This document shows positions 1,814-17,427 of a stretch of 37,797 nt of DNA, one piece after another (the stretch's first letter is position 1; each line of letters opens with the position of its first letter). Location of the stretch: NCBI GenBank assembly GCA_027484915.1, contig JAIXSA010000077.1, forward strand, positions 1-37,797, written 5' to 3'. The position numbers and the translations under genes were made by a program. This DNA comes from Paracoccaceae bacterium (lineage in GTDB: Bacteria > Pseudomonadota > Alphaproteobacteria > Rhodobacterales > Rhodobacteraceae). Under the pieces are notes generated by a model. That model was not told where the DNA came from. It did not search any database and saw only the letters and a program-made list of their open reading frames with translations.

Positions 1814-3556
1814 TCAGCGCATTTCCTCGACCGGAGTTACACCAAGGATACCAAGGCCTGCGCAAATGACAACGCCCACGGCCCGGACCAGAGCGATTTT
1901 CGCCGCAGAAATTGCGGTATCCCCCTGGATGAACCGCAAGCTGTCGTCATCGTTGCCCTTGTTCCACAATCCGTGGAAGTCCGAAGCAAGCTCGTACAGG
2001 TAGAAGGCCACCCGGTGCGGCTCGTGCCCCTTGGCCGCGATTTCCACCAGCCTGGGCCATTCACCCAGCTTGCGGATGACTTCAAGTTCCGCCTCATGCC
2101 CCAGATGGGCGAGATGCGCCTGGGAAAGCGAGGCATCGCTCACGTCCAGGCCCGCATCGCGCGCCTTTCGCAGGATGCTGTTGATCCGGGCATTGGCGTA
2201 TTGCACGTAGAAGACCGGGTTGTCCTTCGACTGCTCGGTCACCTTGTCGAAGTCGAAGTCCAGCGCCACGTCGTTCTTCCGTGTCAGCATCACGAAACGC
2301 ACGACATCCGGCCCGACCTCCTCGATCAGGTCACGCAGCGTGACGAAGGTCCCCGCCCGCTTGGACATCTTGACGATCTGGCCGCCCTTCAGCAGCTTGA
2401 CCAGCTGGATCAGCTTGATGTCCAGCGTGACCCGGTTTTCCGACAGCGCGCTGACCACGGCCTTCAGGCGTTTGACATAGCCCGAATGGTCGGCGCCGAA
2501 GATGTTGATCAGCTCGTCAAACCCGCGCTGCACCTTGTTGTAGTGGTAGGCGATGTCGGGCGCGAAATAGGTCCAGGCCCCGTCCGATTTCTGCACCGGG
2601 CGGTCCTGATCATCCCCGAATGCGGTCGACCGGAACAGCGTCTGCTCGCGCGGTTCCCAGTCTTCGGGGGCCTTGCCCTTCGGCGGCTCCAGCACGCCCT
2701 GGTAGATCAGATCCAGTTTCCGCAGCCGCTCGAGCGCGGCCTCGATCTGCCCCGTGCCATACAGCGCTTTCTCCGACGAATAGACGTCCATCTCGACGCC
2801 CAGCGCCGCCAGATCCTCGCGGATCATCGCCATCATCATGTCGGTCGAGAACACCCGCACGTCGGCCAGCCAGACGCTTTCCGGCTGGTCCAGAAGGCTG
2901 GACCCATACTTGTCCTTCAAGGCCTGACCCACCGGGATCAGGTAGTCCCCTGGATACAACCCCTCGGCGATCTCCGGCGACAGCCCATGTGCCTCGCGGT
3001 ACCGCTCATACGCGGACCGGGCCAGCACAGCGACCTGCCCGCCCCCGTCGTTGATGTAATACTCCCGCGTGACCTGATAGCCCGCAAAGGCCAGCAGCGC
3101 CGCCAGAGCATCGCCCACCACGGCCCCACGCGCATGGGCCACATGCATCGGCCCCGTCGGGTTGGCGCTCACGAACTCGACGTTGACCTTGCGCCCCGCA
3201 CCCAGCTGGGACCGGCCAAAGGCCGTCCCCTGCTCCAAGACAGCGCGCACCAGCCCCTGCCAGGCCGCTGGCTCCAGCCGCAGGTTCAGGAACCCCGGCC
3301 CCGCCACATCGGCCCCGGCCACCCGCGGGTCCGCCATCAGCCGCGCCGCCAGCGCATCCGCAATCGCCCGGGGTTGCATCCCCGCCGGCTTGGCCAGCAC
3401 CATCGCCGCATTCGTCGCCATCTCGCCATGTCCAGCATCCCGCGGCGGCTCCACCGCAACGGCAGCAAGGTCCAGCCCCGCAGGCAACACGCCTGCAGCC
3501 ATCAGCCCCTGCAATTCGGCCACCACAAGCTCACGGATATCTGCGAACAGGTTCAT
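1814..3556 (-). CDS. argS: Arginyl-tRNA synthetase
   Basis: Class I aminoacyl-tRNA synthetase that charges tRNA-Arg in the cytoplasm. It is 580 residues long, normal for the family. The N-terminal tRNA-binding (Add-1) domain is followed by the HIGH-type motif HVAHARG at residues 138-144, preceded by SANPTGP. The KMSKS-type motif is KMSKR at 396-400, and an all-alpha anticodon-binding DALR domain ends the protein (NKGNDDD near the C-terminus). The start ATG at 3556 gives the normal [11 protein letters not shown] opening. It is followed on the same strand by the SPOR and nagZ genes, so one transcript is likely. Confidence 0.97.
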
Positions 3557-3626
3557 TTGATCACATCCTCTGATGCGCCTAGGCCATGCCAGAGGCCCGC
3601 CCAGAGGTCAAGGAGAGCGGCAGGGA

Positions 3627-4106: not shown

Positions 4107-4708
4107 TTCGCCACCCGCGCCGCGTGCTGGGCGGCCGTCAGGTGATACTTCGGCGCGATGAACTCCTCGGCCCGCTTGATCCAGCCGCCCTTGCCGCCAT
4201 CCCGCGCGCGGGCAAACTTGCGGCTGGCGGGTCGGCTGTCGGCCAAGGCGTAGTAGTAGTTCCGCCGCGCGATCCCGTAGGCATCCGCAAGATGCGACGG
4301 CGCCGCCTCATAGGCCATTTGCGCCGCCCGGATCGTCTGCGGCCCGATGGCTCCGTCCGGGTCGCAAGGATAGCCCATGTCGGTCAGAAGCCGCTGAAGG
4401 ATCTTCACCGCATTGCCGCCCGCGTTGACATACATGTCGAACACGCTCGCCTGCAGCGCCTCGGGCAGCGCCGCAATCCCCGGAGCCTCATAGTAGTGCT
4501 TCAAGTAAATCTCGACCGCCTGCTTGCGCGTCAAAGCCTTGACATCGGCCACGTCGATCCGCGTATCGCGGTTCACGTCGATCCCCAGCCGCCGCAAGGT
4601 CCCGATGGTGACACCGTAATTCGTGGCCCCGCCCGGATCATCCGGGTCGTTCACGAAACCGCCCTCGCGGCCCACGATCTCTTCGGCAATCTGACGTACG
4701 TACGGCAT
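4097..4708 (-). CDS. GH108 N-acetylmuramidase endolysin, GTA-type
   Basis: A 203-residue peptidoglycan hydrolase. The N-terminal glycoside hydrolase 108 domain carries the EGGF motif at residues 15-18, with Glu15 the expected catalytic acid, followed by DPDDPGGATNYGVT. A C-terminal peptidoglycan-binding domain (PG_binding_3 type) covers about 100-190 and includes DGAIGPQTIRA. No signal peptide is seen, so export would depend on the adjacent holin, whose gene overlaps the 3' end. Order and size match the two-gene lysis module of Rhodobacter gene transfer agents. The setting between ccmE and argS, with no other phage genes, argues for a domesticated module rather than an active prophage. Confidence 0.88.
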   Translation of the reverse strand: MPYVRQIAEEIVGREGGFVNDPDDPGGATNYGVTIGTLRRLGIDVNRDTRIDVADVKALTRKQAVEIYLKHYYEAPGIAALPEALQASVFDMYVNAGGNAVKILQRLLTDMGYPCDPDGAIGPQTIRAAQMAYEAAPSHLADAYGIARRNYYYALADSRPASRKFARARDGGKGGWIKRAEEFIAPKYHLTAAQHAARVAKWG

Positions 4709-11494: not shown

Positions 11495-12400
11495 ATGGAC
11501 TGGGACAAGCTGAGGATCTTTCACGCCGTGGCGGAGAAGGGCAGCCTGACCCATGCGGGCGACGTCCTGCACCTGTCGCAATCGGCTGTCAGCCGCCAGA
11601 TCCGGGCGCTGGAGGAAAGCCTGAACGTCACGCTGTTCCATCGGCACGCCCGGGGGCTGATCCTGACCGAACAGGGCGAATTGCTGTTCGACGCGACGAC
11701 GCAGATGGTGCGGCGGCTGGACGCGACGGCGGCGCGGATCCGCGACAGCGAAGACGAGGTCTTTGGCGAGCTGCGGGTGACGACGACGACGGGGTTCGGC
11801 ACGCTGTGGCTGGCCCCTCGGCTGGCGCGGCTTTACGCGAAGTATCCAGCGCTGAAGATCGACCTGATGCTGGAAGAGCGCGTCCTGGACCTGCCGATGC
11901 GCGAGGCGGATGTGGCGATCCGGATGAAAGAGCCCAGCCAGGCCGACCTGATCCGCAAGCGGCTGATGCAGATCAAGATGCAGATGTTCGCGACGCCCGA
12001 GTATCTGGAGACGCATGGCACGCCGCAGTCGATGGATGATTTCAGCAGTCACCGGTTGATCAGCCAGCATGCGGGCACGCCGCAGGTCGCGGCGGGGGCG
12101 CTTCTGGTGGCGGAACTGATGACGCATGACATTCCGTCGACGCTGACGGTGAACAACTACTTCGGGGTGTTGCAGGCGGTGCTGAACCATCTGGGGATCG
12201 GGGTGCTGCCGGACTATCTGATCGAGGATTTCCCCAACCTTGTCCGGGTCCTGCCCGACGTGGAAAGTGCCGAGGTGCCGGTGTTCCTGGCCTATCCTGA
12301 GGAACTGCGCCATTCCAAGCGCGTGGCGGCGTTCCGCGACTTTGTGACCGAAGAGATCATGTCCTTCCGCCGCCGCCAGGCCGAGGACGCGGCGGCCTGA
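11495..12400 (+). CDS. LysR-family transcriptional regulator
   Basis: A 301-residue DNA-binding regulator. The N-terminal winged helix-turn-helix covers about residues 1-60 (WDKLRIFHAVAEKGSLTHAG, then LSQSAVSRQIRALEE), followed by a linker helix and a periplasmic-binding-like effector domain that includes NYFGVLQAVLNHLGIGVLP. It is divergent from murI across 190 bp. LysR regulators often act on divergent promoters, but murI is an unlikely sole target. It is followed by two hairpins and a candidate sRNA. Effector and regulon are unknown. Confidence 0.93.
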   Translation: MDWDKLRIFHAVAEKGSLTHAGDVLHLSQSAVSRQIRALEESLNVTLFHRHARGLILTEQGELLFDATTQMVRRLDATAARIRDSEDEVFGELRVTTTTGFGTLWLAPRLARLYAKYPALKIDLMLEERVLDLPMREADVAIRMKEPSQADLIRKRLMQIKMQMFATPEYLETHGTPQSMDDFSSHRLISQHAGTPQVAAGALLVAELMTHDIPSTLTVNNYFGVLQAVLNHLGIGVLPDYLIEDFPNLVRVLPDVESAEVPVFLAYPEELRHSKRVAAFRDFVTEEIMSFRRRQAEDAAA

Positions 12401-12492: not shown

Positions 12493-12572
12493 CGAAGCGG
12501 CGATGAGCGTTCTCTCGTCCCTTCGTACCTCCCTGTTGGACTTGGCCGAGCGTAATGCTCGGCCTTTTTTTT
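12493..12572 (+). ncRNA. Candidate small RNA of about 80 nt
   Basis: A short interval bounded by a promoter-like sequence upstream and a strong intrinsic terminator downstream, unlinked to any credible gene. It contains CCTCC at 12528-12532, which could pair with ribosome-binding sites, in the C/U-rich stretch TCCCTTCGTACCTCCCTG. A 37-codon frame starts at the ATG at 12513 but runs through the terminator, so coding is unlikely. I do not recognise a named sRNA family. Read-through processing of the lysR mRNA is the alternative source. Confidence 0.5.
12544..12572 (+). terminator. Strong intrinsic terminator
   Basis: Perfect 8-bp stem GGCCGAGC / GCTCGGCC with a GTAAT loop and eight T residues. 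It ends the candidate sRNA, or the lysR transcript. Confidence 0.95.
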
Positions 12573-13196: not shown

Positions 13197-14396
13197 TTAT
13201 CCCAGAGCGTCGAGGCGCGCGGCCAGGAAACTGCGGTCCGCTTCGGACGGCGCAAGCGCGATGGCGGTGTCGTAGGCGGTCCTGGCCGCGTCGATGCGTC
13301 CGACGCGAACCAGAAGGTCGGCCAGCACGGCGTGAAACGGCTGATACCCCGCCAGCGCGTCGGACAGGGGTTCGACCTGCGCCAGGGCGCGATCGGGAAA
13401 CCCTGATTCCGCGACCGCGACCGCATGATTGAGCGCGACGACCGGCGTCGGCTCGTAAACCATCAGCCGGGCATAAAGGGCGGCAATCTGCGGCCAATCG
13501 GGGGTGCCCGGTCCCGAGTGCAGGGCGGCAATCGCGGCCTTGATCTGGAACGGGCCTGGCGCGCGTCAGGCGATGGCGCGGTCAAGAAGGTGCTGCCCCT
13601 CGTCCAGCTCTTCCTGACTCCAGAGGCTGCGGTCCTGCCGGGCGGGGGGCAGGGTCTGGCCGTTCACACCGGTCCGGGCCTTCCTGCGCGCATGGGTCAG
13701 AAGAAGCAGTGCAAGCGCGGCTTCGACCTCTGCTTCATCCGGGGCAAGCTGCACAAGCAGGCGGGCCAGGAAGATCGCTTCGGCGCACAGGTCGGTTCCG
13801 GCTTGCGGGCCCTGCGCATATCCAGCGGTGAAGATCAGGTAGACCGTCGTCAGAACCGAGTTCAGCCGGTCGGGCAGATCTTCAGGGCCGGGTACGGCGT
13901 AGGGGATGCGGGCAGCGGCGATCTTGGCCTTGGCGCGAGACAGGCGCTGGCCCATCGTCGGCGCGGCATCGAGGAAGACGGCGGCGACTTGTGGGGTCGT
14001 CAGGCCGCAAAGCGACCGCAGGGTCAGGGCGATGCGCGACTTTTCTTCCAGCGCCGGGTGGCAGCAGGTGAAGATCAGGCGCAGGCGGTCATCGGGGATG
14101 GTTTGTGGGTCGGGATCGGCGGCCTCTTCCTCGGCCAGCGCCGCGACAGCCTCGCGGTGGCGCGACAGGGTCGCATCGCGGCGGTAGCCGTCCTTGGCCT
14201 TGCGGAGGGCGGCGCGCAGGAGCCAGCCGGTCGGGCTTGCGGGCACCCCTGCCCTACCCCAATGCACCAGCGCCGAAGCGGCGGCTTCCTGAAGGGCGTC
14301 CTCAGCGCGCTGGAAGTCGCCCAGGCGCGAAATGAGGGCGGCCAGAAGCCGCCCCCGATCTTCCTGCATCACCCGGGTCAGGGTGGCCTTGGTCAT
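13197..14396 (-). pseudogene. ECF42-type sigma factor gene with an in-frame TGA
   Basis: A 400-codon gene for an extracytoplasmic-function sigma factor of the ECF42 type, interrupted by one stop. Codons 1-276 hold sigma region 2 and region 4 (LTLRSLCGLTTPQVAAVFL) and the start of the long C-terminal extension (DUF6596/TPR-like). A TGA at 13566-13568 follows DEGQHLLDRAIA. The same frame then continues with RAPGPFQIKAAIAALH to a TAA at 13197-13199, exactly as in intact relatives, so only one codon is changed and no frameshift is needed. The start overlaps the upstream DGPF gene as ATGA. The truncated product would lack most of the extension that ECF42 proteins need. A sequencing error is the main alternative. 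Confidence 0.85.
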
Positions 14397-14731
14397 CCGA
14401 AGACGACGAGCGGGCGCACCTCGACCGTGCCGTAGGTGGCCCCCGGGATCTGCGCGGCCCAGTGGAGCGCCTGGTCAAGGTCGGGGCAGTCGATGATGTA
14501 GTAGCCGCCCAGATGTTCGCGGGTTTCGGCGAAGGGGCCGTCCATCGTTTCGACCTTGTCGCCACGCTTGCGCAGCGAGGTTGCCGTGGCGGAGGGTTGC
14601 AGCGCATCCCCCGAGATCATCACGCCCGCCTCTTTCATCCGGCGGTTCAGGTCGAAGTAGGCCTGGTTCATGTTGATGCCCATCGGCGGCGTCGCGGATG
14701 GGTCAGTGTAGATCAGACACATGTATTTCAT
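14393..14731 (-). CDS. DGPF-domain (YCII-related) protein 1
   Basis: A 112-residue protein of the DGPF/YCII-related family, small ferredoxin-fold proteins encoded next to ECF42 sigma factors. It has the namesake motif in DGPFAETREHLGGYYIID and the typical opening MKYMCLIY. Biochemical function is not established for the group. It lies 1 bp after the second DGPF gene and overlaps the sigma gene by 4 bp, so all three are co-expressed. The paralogue upstream shares the motif FAETREHLGG exactly. Confidence 0.93.
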   Translation of the reverse strand: MKYMCLIYTDPSATPPMGINMNQAYFDLNRRMKEAGVMISGDALQPSATATSLRKRGDKVETMDGPFAETREHLGGYYIIDCPDLDQALHWAAQIPGATYGTVEVRPLVVFG

Positions 14732-14732
14732 G

Positions 14733-15080
14733 TCAGAACTCCATCACGGGCCGAACCTCGACCGACCCGTATCGGGCGGCGGGGACTTCGGCAGCAAAGC
14801 GGAGGGCGGCGTCCAGGTCGGCGGCCTCGATCAGGTAGAAGCCGCCCAGATGCTCGCGCGTTTCGGCGAAGGGGCCATCGATGGTTACCACCTTGCCTGC
14901 GCGCTTGCGCAGCGTCGTCGCGGTCGTCACCGGTTGCAGGCCCTCACCCGCGACGAAGGTGGCGGTGTCCTTCATCTTTTCCGTCAGGCCGAAGTATTCG
15001 CCCATCATCGCATCGAACTCCGGTGTGCCCGGGGCTGGCTCGGCTTCGGGGGCAGCATAGAGCGTCAGAAGGTATTTCAT
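14733..15080 (-). CDS. DGPF-domain (YCII-related) protein 2
   Basis: A 115-residue paralogue of the next gene, with IDGPFAETREHLGGFYLIEA and ending in EVRPVMEF. It is the first gene of the ECF42 operon. The ATG at 15080 was chosen because it gives MKYLLTLYAAPE, aligned with the paralogue's MKYMCLIY. An ECF42-like promoter lies at 15132-15158. The gene appears intact although the sigma factor of the same operon is interrupted. Confidence 0.92.
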   Translation of the reverse strand: MKYLLTLYAAPEAEPAPGTPEFDAMMGEYFGLTEKMKDTATFVAGEGLQPVTTATTLRKRAGKVVTIDGPFAETREHLGGFYLIEAADLDAALRFAAEVPAARYGSVEVRPVMEF

Positions 15081-15131: not shown

Positions 15132-15158
15132 GACGGGCGAGGTGCAGCATTTTCGACA
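15132..15158 (-). promoter_or_regulatory. ECF42-type promoter of the DGPF-sigma operon
   Basis: On the minus strand TGTCGA (-35, 15158-15153) is followed by a 17-base spacer and CGTC (-10, 15135-15132). This fits the published ECF42 promoter pattern, TGTCGA with a CG[A/T]C -10 element. It lies about 50 bp upstream of the first DGPF start, so the operon was probably autoregulated. Confidence 0.7.
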
Positions 15159-15273: not shown

Positions 15274-17427
15274 ATGCAAGAACCCGCCATCACGCCGGAA
15301 TTGGTTGCCAGCCACGGGATCAAGCCCGATGAGTGGGAGCGGCTGCTGGGGATCATGGGGCGGGAGCCGACGTTCACAGAACTGGGCATCTTCAGCGCGA
15401 TGTGGAACGAGCATTGTTCCTACAAGTCCTCGAAGATCCATCTGAAGAAGTTGCCGACGACGGGTCCTCAAGTGATCTGCGGGCCGGGTGAGAATGCGGG
15501 CGTTGTCGATATCGGCGATGGGCAGGCGGTGATCTTCAAGATGGAGAGCCACAACCACCCTTCCTACATCGAGCCGCATCAGGGCGCGGCGACCGGCGTG
15601 GGCGGCATCCTGCGCGACGTCTTCACCATGGGCGCGCGGCCGATTGCGGCGATGAATGCTTTGTCGTTCGGGCTGCCCTCGCATCCCAAGACCGCGCATC
15701 TGGTGAAGGGCGTGGTGGAGGGCGTCGGGTCCTACGGCAACGCGTTCGGCGTGCCGACAGTGGGCGGCGAGGTGCGCTTCCACCGCAGCTACAACGGCAA
15801 CTGCCTGGTGAACGCCTTTGCGGCGGGTCTCGCGGATACCGACAAGATTTTCTACTCGGCAGCGTCCGGCGTGGGGATGCCTGTGGTGTATCTTGGTGCC
15901 AAAACCGGACGAGACGGGGTTGGCGGCGCGACGATGGCCAGCGCAGAGTTCGACGACACGATCGAGGAGAAGCGCCCGACGGTGCAGGTGGGTGACCCCT
16001 TCACCGAGAAGCGCCTGCTGGAGGCTTGCCTGGAGCTGATGGCCTCGGGCGCGGTGATCTCCATCCAGGACATGGGGGCTGCGGGGCTGACCTGCTCGGC
16101 GGTCGAGATGGGCGACAAGGGCGGGCTTGGGATCAAGCTGCAGCTCGACGATGTGCCGCAGCGCGAGACGGGGATGACGGCCTACGAGATGATGCTGTCG
16201 GAAAGCCAGGAGCGGATGCTCATGGTGCTGAAGCCTGAAAAGGAGGCCGAGGCGCGGGCGATTTTCGTGAAGTGGGACCTCGACTTCGCCATCGTCGGCG
16301 AGACGATCCCCGAGGACCGCTTCCTGATCCTGCACGGCAACGAGGTCAAGGCGGATATTCCGCTGTCGAAGCTGTCGTCGTCCGCGCCGGAGTATGACCG
16401 GCCCTGGGTCGCGTCCCCTGCGCCGGCGCCGCTGCCTGCGGTCCCGGCGATCACACCCATCGCGGCGTTGAAGACGCTGATCGGGTCGCCCTCCTATGCT
16501 CACAAGGGTTGGGTCTACGAGCAGTACGACAGCCAAGTGGGTGCGGATACCGTGGTGCCGCCGGGTGTGGGTGCGGGTGTGGTGCGCGTGCACGGGACGG
16601 GGAAGCTGTTGGCGTTCACGTCCAACGTGACGCCGCGCTATGTGAAGGCGAACCCGGTCGAGGGTGGCAAGCAGGCGGTGGCCGAGGCGTATCGGAACCT
16701 TGTGGCCGTCGGCGCAAAGCCTTTGGCCACGACCGACAACCTGAACTTCGGCAACCCGGAAAAGCCCGAGATCATGGGGCAGTTCGTCGGCGCGCTGGAG
16801 GGGATCGGGGCAGCGGTGAAGGCCCTGGACATGCCGATCGTGTCGGGGAACGTGTCGCTGTACAACGAAACGGACGGGTCGGGCATCCTGCCGACGCCGA
16901 CCATCGGTGCGGTCGGGATCATGAAGACCGACGAGTTGATCGCGGGTCACCCGGCGGATGGCGACATCGTCGTCGTCATCGGCGAGACGCGGGGGCATCT
17001 GGGGCAGTCGGCCCTGCTGGCCGAGGCGTTCGGGATCGAGGCGGGGGAGCCGCCATTCGTCGATCTTGCGGCGGAAGCCTCGGCCGCAAAAGCGCTGCTT
17101 GCCAACCGCAAGCGCATCCGTGCGGCGCGGGACCTCGGCGATGGCGGCCTGGCGCTGGCGGCGTTCCGGATGGCGGAAGGCGCGGGCATCGGGCTTTCGC
17201 TGAAGACCGCAGACATCGGCCAGCTTTTCGGCGAGGACCAAGCGCGCTACGTGGTGGCGATCCGGCACGATGACCTTGCGGCGTTCATGGCGGCAGCGGG
17301 TGGGGTCAAGGTGACCCAGGTGGGCCGCTTTGGCGGCGACCGCGTGACCTTCGGTACCGAGAGTGCGCCGTTGGCGGAGCTGTCGCAGCTGTACCGCACC
17401 GCCTTCGCCGCGACCGTGGGCGTCTGA
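15274..17427 (+). CDS. purL: Phosphoribosylformylglycinamidine synthase II
   Basis: ATP-dependent synthetase subunit of purine biosynthesis that converts FGAR to FGAM with ammonia from PurQ, bridged by PurS. It is 717 residues long, the small PurL form, so separate purS and purQ genes must exist elsewhere. The N-terminal [11 protein letters not shown] segment, [10 protein letters not shown] and [12 protein letters not shown] of the first ATP domain, and the repeated second half are all present. It heads a plus-strand run of closely spaced genes through grxD. The stop shares a base with the start of the GNAT gene (TGATG). Confidence 0.97.

Follow-up and report, generated by a model that had tools for sequence, protein, structure and literature searches.

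A probable recent nonsense mutation in an ECF42 sigma factor gene, within a module that seems repeatedly lost from one chromosomal interval

Among the described ECF42 sigma factors with DGPF/YCII partners are Sven_0747 and others of Streptomyces venezuelae, ECF-10 of P. putida and RpoE10 of S. meliloti, as presented in the accessible parts of PMC8999054 and PMC6180224. The long C-terminal extension of these proteins is called 'completely essential' for activity in the available text of PMC8999054, where the YCII protein is regarded as likely to take part in the mechanism. According to the portion of PMC9023288 at hand, the part of the extension proximal to sigma4 is required, and a ligand on the TPR part may suppress activity. 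In S. meliloti a YCII gene lies upstream of RpoE10, and according to the accessible part of PMC6180224 RpoE10 does not activate its own operon.

The DNA analysed here, which we refer to as the window, is 37,797 nucleotides long and is one entire contig of a draft genome in 173 contigs (95.24% complete). It contains an ECF42 gene that resembles the known systems in having a sigma2-sigma4 core, a YCII gene directly upstream, an ECF42-type promoter and, by descent, a long TPR-like extension. Unlike them, it has a premature stop after DUF6596. The features of the locus are as follows, the two outermost genes being named by resemblance.

11495-12400 (+): LysR-type regulator, left edge of the interval
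13197-14396 (-): ECF42 sigma factor gene, made up of 276 codons, a single in-frame TGA, 122 more codons and the natural stop
13200-13565 (-): TPR-like C-terminal part past the stop, 122 codons
13566-13568 (-): premature TGA, a sense codon in 64/64 related sequences checked
13569-14396 (-): part still open (residues 1-276), carrying sigma regions 2 and 4 and DUF6596
14393-14731 (-): second DGPF/YCII protein, 112 aa (PF03795), under purifying selection and sharing 4 bases with the sigma start
14733-15080 (-): first DGPF/YCII protein, 115 aa (PF03795), under purifying selection
15132-15158 (-): ECF42-type promoter, TGTCGAAA-N15-CGTC, upstream of the DGPF-sigma operon
15274-17427 (+): purL, right edge of an interval that is conserved with or without the module

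The interrupted operon

The sigma frame began at an ATG (14394-14396), ran through 276 codons to the TGA and continued in the same frame to a natural stop at 13197-13199. The TGA was flanked by DRAIA on one side and RAPGPFQIKAAIAALH on the other, which agreed with the original prediction of a stop lying in frame between two conserved stretches; 122 conserved codons followed it, and the claim that it is the only lesion in the gene was upheld. Pfam matched the open part to PF04542 (region 2) and PF08281 (region 4), both above cut-off, and to DUF6596 at residues 177-274; sigma region 3 was absent among the Pfam matches listed for the gene. This combination of regions 2 and 4 without region 3 is that of ECF42, and together with the DGPF neighbours the domains supported the proposed identity of 13197-14396. 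The part past the stop matched TPR_21 above cut-off and showed 66-71% identity to the same region of the relatives L003-L006, so we regard it as genuine coding sequence. The extension of about 200 residues that ECF42 proteins carry (DUF6596 followed by the TPR-like part) was not complete in the product, and since the TPR part lies past the stop the gene is ECF42 by descent and its predicted product an incomplete member. DUF6596 was matched only once in the draft genome (95.24% complete), in this gene.

The neighbouring genes had the arrangement expected for ECF42, with two PF03795 genes directly upstream of the sigma gene. On the window branch these showed omega values of 0.062 and 0.120, similar to their backgrounds (star trees, five relatives each), and each is under purifying selection; the claim that both DGPF partners are intact was supported. 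The promoter, with its TGTCG...CGTC pattern upstream of the operon, was also found intact at the predicted position. The exact pattern had one copy in this genome and stood upstream of the operon at 16/17 of the genus orthologue loci examined (L012 was left out), L009 being the locus where it was missing. Searches for the exact pattern in six carrier genomes gave one or two copies per genome, always including that of the operon, a count in which weaker sites would be missed. Across ten genomes there were 9 matches against 7 for a reversed control; as the pattern is about as common as its control, it is position alone that makes the promoter match telling. We take it to be the ECF42 motif because it is conserved here and resembles the S. 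meliloti promoters listed in the available part of PMC6180224.

When intact, the module is a small operon in which the promoter is followed by one or two DGPF/YCII genes and then by the gene for the ECF42 sigma factor, which probably recognises the promoter of its own operon. Autoregulation of the window operon is nevertheless uncertain, because RpoE10 was inactive on its own operon (PMC6180224, in the part available). The nonsense mutation in the ECF42 gene of this Tabrizicola-like genome would end translation after DUF6596, with the loss of seven predicted C-terminal helices. Truncation would be expected to leave the module switched off or misregulated, the loss of activity being presumed, while the promoter and the DGPF genes appear undecayed as yet.

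The stop codon in relatives and selection on the gene

Relatives ending at this codon, which would have spoken against the original prediction, were not seen: a stop occurred here in 0/64 related sequences. All 18 genus orthologues encoded arginine here, and 17/18 had the identical codon; among 46 further related sequences, arginine was found in 35 and another residue in 11. Surveys of wider samples, in which at most four candidates were scored per genome, gave the same picture. In the family survey (394 genomes), 94 matches passed 1e-40 and TGA occurred in the window copy alone; the one other stop-bearing match had TAG at the conserved region 2 tryptophan (L055 in G234). The class survey (385 genomes) yielded 82 passing matches, of which only the window copy had any stop. 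A natural C-terminus at this codon was rejected, as none of the relatives surveyed at family, class or genus level terminated here (with at most four candidates per genome scored in the first two). As is asked of a pseudogene, the lesion was missing from relatives in the family, class and 64-sequence checks; that it disables the gene is what we infer.

The genus survey returned 29 ECF42 matches past 1e-10 in 21/32 genomes. Besides the window copy, those plainly broken were a scrap in G008 and a second paralogue in G007, listed in two rows. In the G007 paralogue (L056, 1996-2771) the reading frame shifted after sigma region 4 and before DUF6596. One match, from G025, was partial (residues 79-347). 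The ECF42 gene of G014 (L009) looked chimeric by eye, with approximately residues 1-200 like the L012/L013 group and the remainder like L004.

Selection was estimated by a joint fit of a custom codon model to eight sequences, with a tree shape fixed by hand from a weakly supported tree; synonymous change was near saturation and the estimates are hence rough. The joint fit gave an omega of 0.105 for the sigma gene on the window branch against 0.114 for the background, with an approximate 95% upper limit of 0.16 on the window branch, and omega = 1 was rejected (2dlnL 75). Residues 1-276 alone gave 0.096 on the window branch and 0.099 on the background. A simple mixture of two omega values allowed a neutral share of the window branch of roughly 5% at most. 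For residues 1-276, single intact branches also departed from the background (L003 0.063, L004 0.053, L006 0.125), so small differences in omega mean little. When the codon model was applied to the part past the stop alone, it returned implausible branch lengths for several foreground branches, for which reason we rely on the joint fit.

Relaxed selection was not detected on the window sigma branch, an outcome to be expected if the lesion is recent and equally if there is none. The sigma gene and both DGPF partners showed ordinary purifying selection, from which it follows that the lesion is either recent or not real. Where 95% of the other sequences agreed at a site, the window copy was unchanged, as were 23 others (60 aligned). 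The window copy had a lysine in region 2 at a position occupied by I, L or V in 59/59 others. This hints at relaxed constraint and is not decisive; E. coli RpoE carries lysine at that position. The undecayed state of the sigma part is also consistent with a gene that still works.

Readings of the stop

We consider it probable that the stop is a recent nonsense mutation, making a pseudogene of the sole ECF42 gene found in the genome, and that it belongs to a recurrent loss of the module. Relatives with a sense codon and purifying selection until recently both supported the fresh pseudogene, one of the options put forward with the original prediction, as the leading one. As relatives have either intact copies or no gene, the window copy is most likely a commonplace gene in the course of being lost. 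Taken alone, the window copy is one disrupted member of a known sigma factor family, with an ordinary explanation.

It may also be that the stop is an artefact, or that it is a strain variant and not fixed. If the TGA came from faulty base calling or assembly, or from a minority variant in a mixed population, the gene of the species would be intact, as might be suspected from a draft of 173 contigs and from the undecayed rest of the operon. This is unlikely, however, given the codon itself: the TGA is two bases away from the codon of 17/18 genus orthologues, and among the arginine codons of 20 window genes or parts only 17/449 (3.8%) are one change away from TGA, so a single miscall is a strained explanation. 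Nor was a second damaged gene apparent. The window was scanned for stops against the ORFs of ten stretches from eight relatives over approximately 1-33.5 kb, the final 4 kb lying outside. Among the best matches listed, no conserved gene in this range was broken by a stop other than the sigma TGA; read against the ORF list, the remaining stops preceded the starts of genes, lay in intergenic DNA or belonged to spurious frames.

If the stop is real, the question is what the gene still produces. Some full-length sigma factor would be made if the UGA were read through, whether as a leaky UGA-C, by a suppressor tRNA or as selenocysteine. Both parts of the gene are conserved and the base after the UGA is C, a weak termination context at which ordinary leakiness is conceivable, yet we consider read-through very improbable. 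No SelB match exceeded the cut-off (the best, which is probably EF-Tu, scored 190 bits against 242), and the sole tRNA-Sec match above threshold was a tRNA-Ser according to ARAGORN. There was no unusual fold 3′ of the TGA when compared with shuffles (z 0.5). TGA served as an ordinary stop in 16/19 of the window genes counted with a stop, which leaves a wholesale recoding of UGA unsupported; selenocysteine was rejected, having no SelB, tRNA-Sec or hairpin support. The 276-residue protein could instead be a working sigma factor that lacks the TPR part and is regulated differently, for example always on. A structure model of the read-through protein (11 sequences, mean pLDDT 87.3, pTM 0.83) placed residue 277 in a loop that joins helices 261-274 and 282-293, with seven helices after it. 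The stop thus falls just past DUF6596 (177-274) and between predicted helices. The short product would keep the portion of the extension next to sigma4, and it could be partly active, as the stop is at a domain boundary. The open part is also under purifying selection on the window branch, and the accessible text of PMC9023288 states that the proximal part is required and that a ligand on the TPR part may suppress activity. Set against this, no match at any of the three survey levels terminated here, the available portion of PMC8999054 treats the extension as completely essential, and the part past the stop was as conserved as among intact relatives, which indicates that it was in use until recently. 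A working short sigma factor is on this evidence very improbable, and the more specific proposal of an active TPR-less ECF42 (sigma2-sigma4-DUF6596), freed from control by the DGPF partner or by some other ligand of the TPR part, is a long shot. If true, nature would here have split the proximal piece of the extension, which activates, from the piece that senses. The listed option of a truncated sigma domain with a new role gained no support, as no survey match ended near the codon in the samples examined (at most four candidates per genome scored in family and class). With the literature on the extension in mind (PMC8999054 and PMC9023288, each as far as its text was available), the 276-residue product is predicted, as likely, to be inactive.

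Searches for structural relatives were also made. By sequence, no PDB relative was found at 1e-5, and the 50 Foldseek matches listed were mostly TPR proteins by title, with low TM-scores.

Presence and absence of the module beside purL

Across the genus, the operon has the LysR-type gene on one side and purL on the other, and purL was matched in 30/32 genomes. A stop-free orthologue was present in 17 of the 30 purL-positive genomes, one of which (G018) had its copy on a different contig from purL; an 18th orthologue was found in G012, a genome without a purL match. Rhodobacter sp. SY28-1 (L032), for example, shares with the window the purL-side interval, the DGPF pair and the promoter position, and differs in having an intact sigma gene. 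The module was undetected in 11/30 purL-positive genomes, a remnant was present in one (G008) and the nonsense copy is that of the window. Both flanking genes were kept in 11/11 of the module-less genomes. In these 11, neither ECF42 nor DGPF was detected at E 0.01 in the stretch upstream of purL, and ECF42 was not detected genome-wide at 1e-10.

The module-less genome G015 (L151) had an exact ECF42-type promoter 118 bases from purL, compared with 115 in the window. In the other ten module-less genomes and in G008 the pattern was mismatched at at least 3 of 12 promoter positions. The G015 promoter, standing without a module, is likely a fossil. Candidate ECF42 scraps in G015 were rejected: the best body match scored 24.3 bits against a maximum of 24.6 from 50 simple shuffles, and as this is within the shuffle range we claim only the promoter there. 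Stronger G015 matches were to the tail of L008; these were also the best in five other intervals and represent a conserved intergenic stretch, not ECF42.

The G008 locus (L160) occupies the same interval as that of the window, bounded by the LysR-type gene and purL. Unlike the window, it was reduced to a DGPF scrap and an ECF42 scrap (4218-4487) near purL. The gene flanking these scraps on the side away from purL is, we assume, PRC-like.

The absences and the intermediates all fall at one interval, and the module therefore seems to have been lost repeatedly, although gain is possible too; we infer that the absences are mostly losses. The single-gene tree, built from a purL fragment, had weak support, so no number of losses is claimed. 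The window copy would be one step in this recurrent loss of the module from a single chromosomal interval. For the genus, this amounts to a promoter-DGPF-sigma module that is either in, or missing from, one fixed interval, with a nonsense copy, scraps and a lone promoter as intermediates. Such a pattern of presence and absence is what a small and dispensable unit would show, and comparing carriers with natural losers could be a way to study its function.

Two further observations were made. L043, a contig reached by a different route, encoded an ECF42 gene without its middle part (approximately 3001-3621) that adjoins purL; no DGPF match was found in L043 at 1e-6, and a DGPF-like tail was seen by eye. 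In the window, a small RNA of the SorX/SorY kind was found at 12495-12572 (+), just downstream of the LysR-type gene, where SorX (RF02784) scored above its gathering score at 12517-12570 and SorY fell below its own. Sequence resembling this SorX/SorY region was also seen, by eye, as intergenic sequence in several genus genomes.
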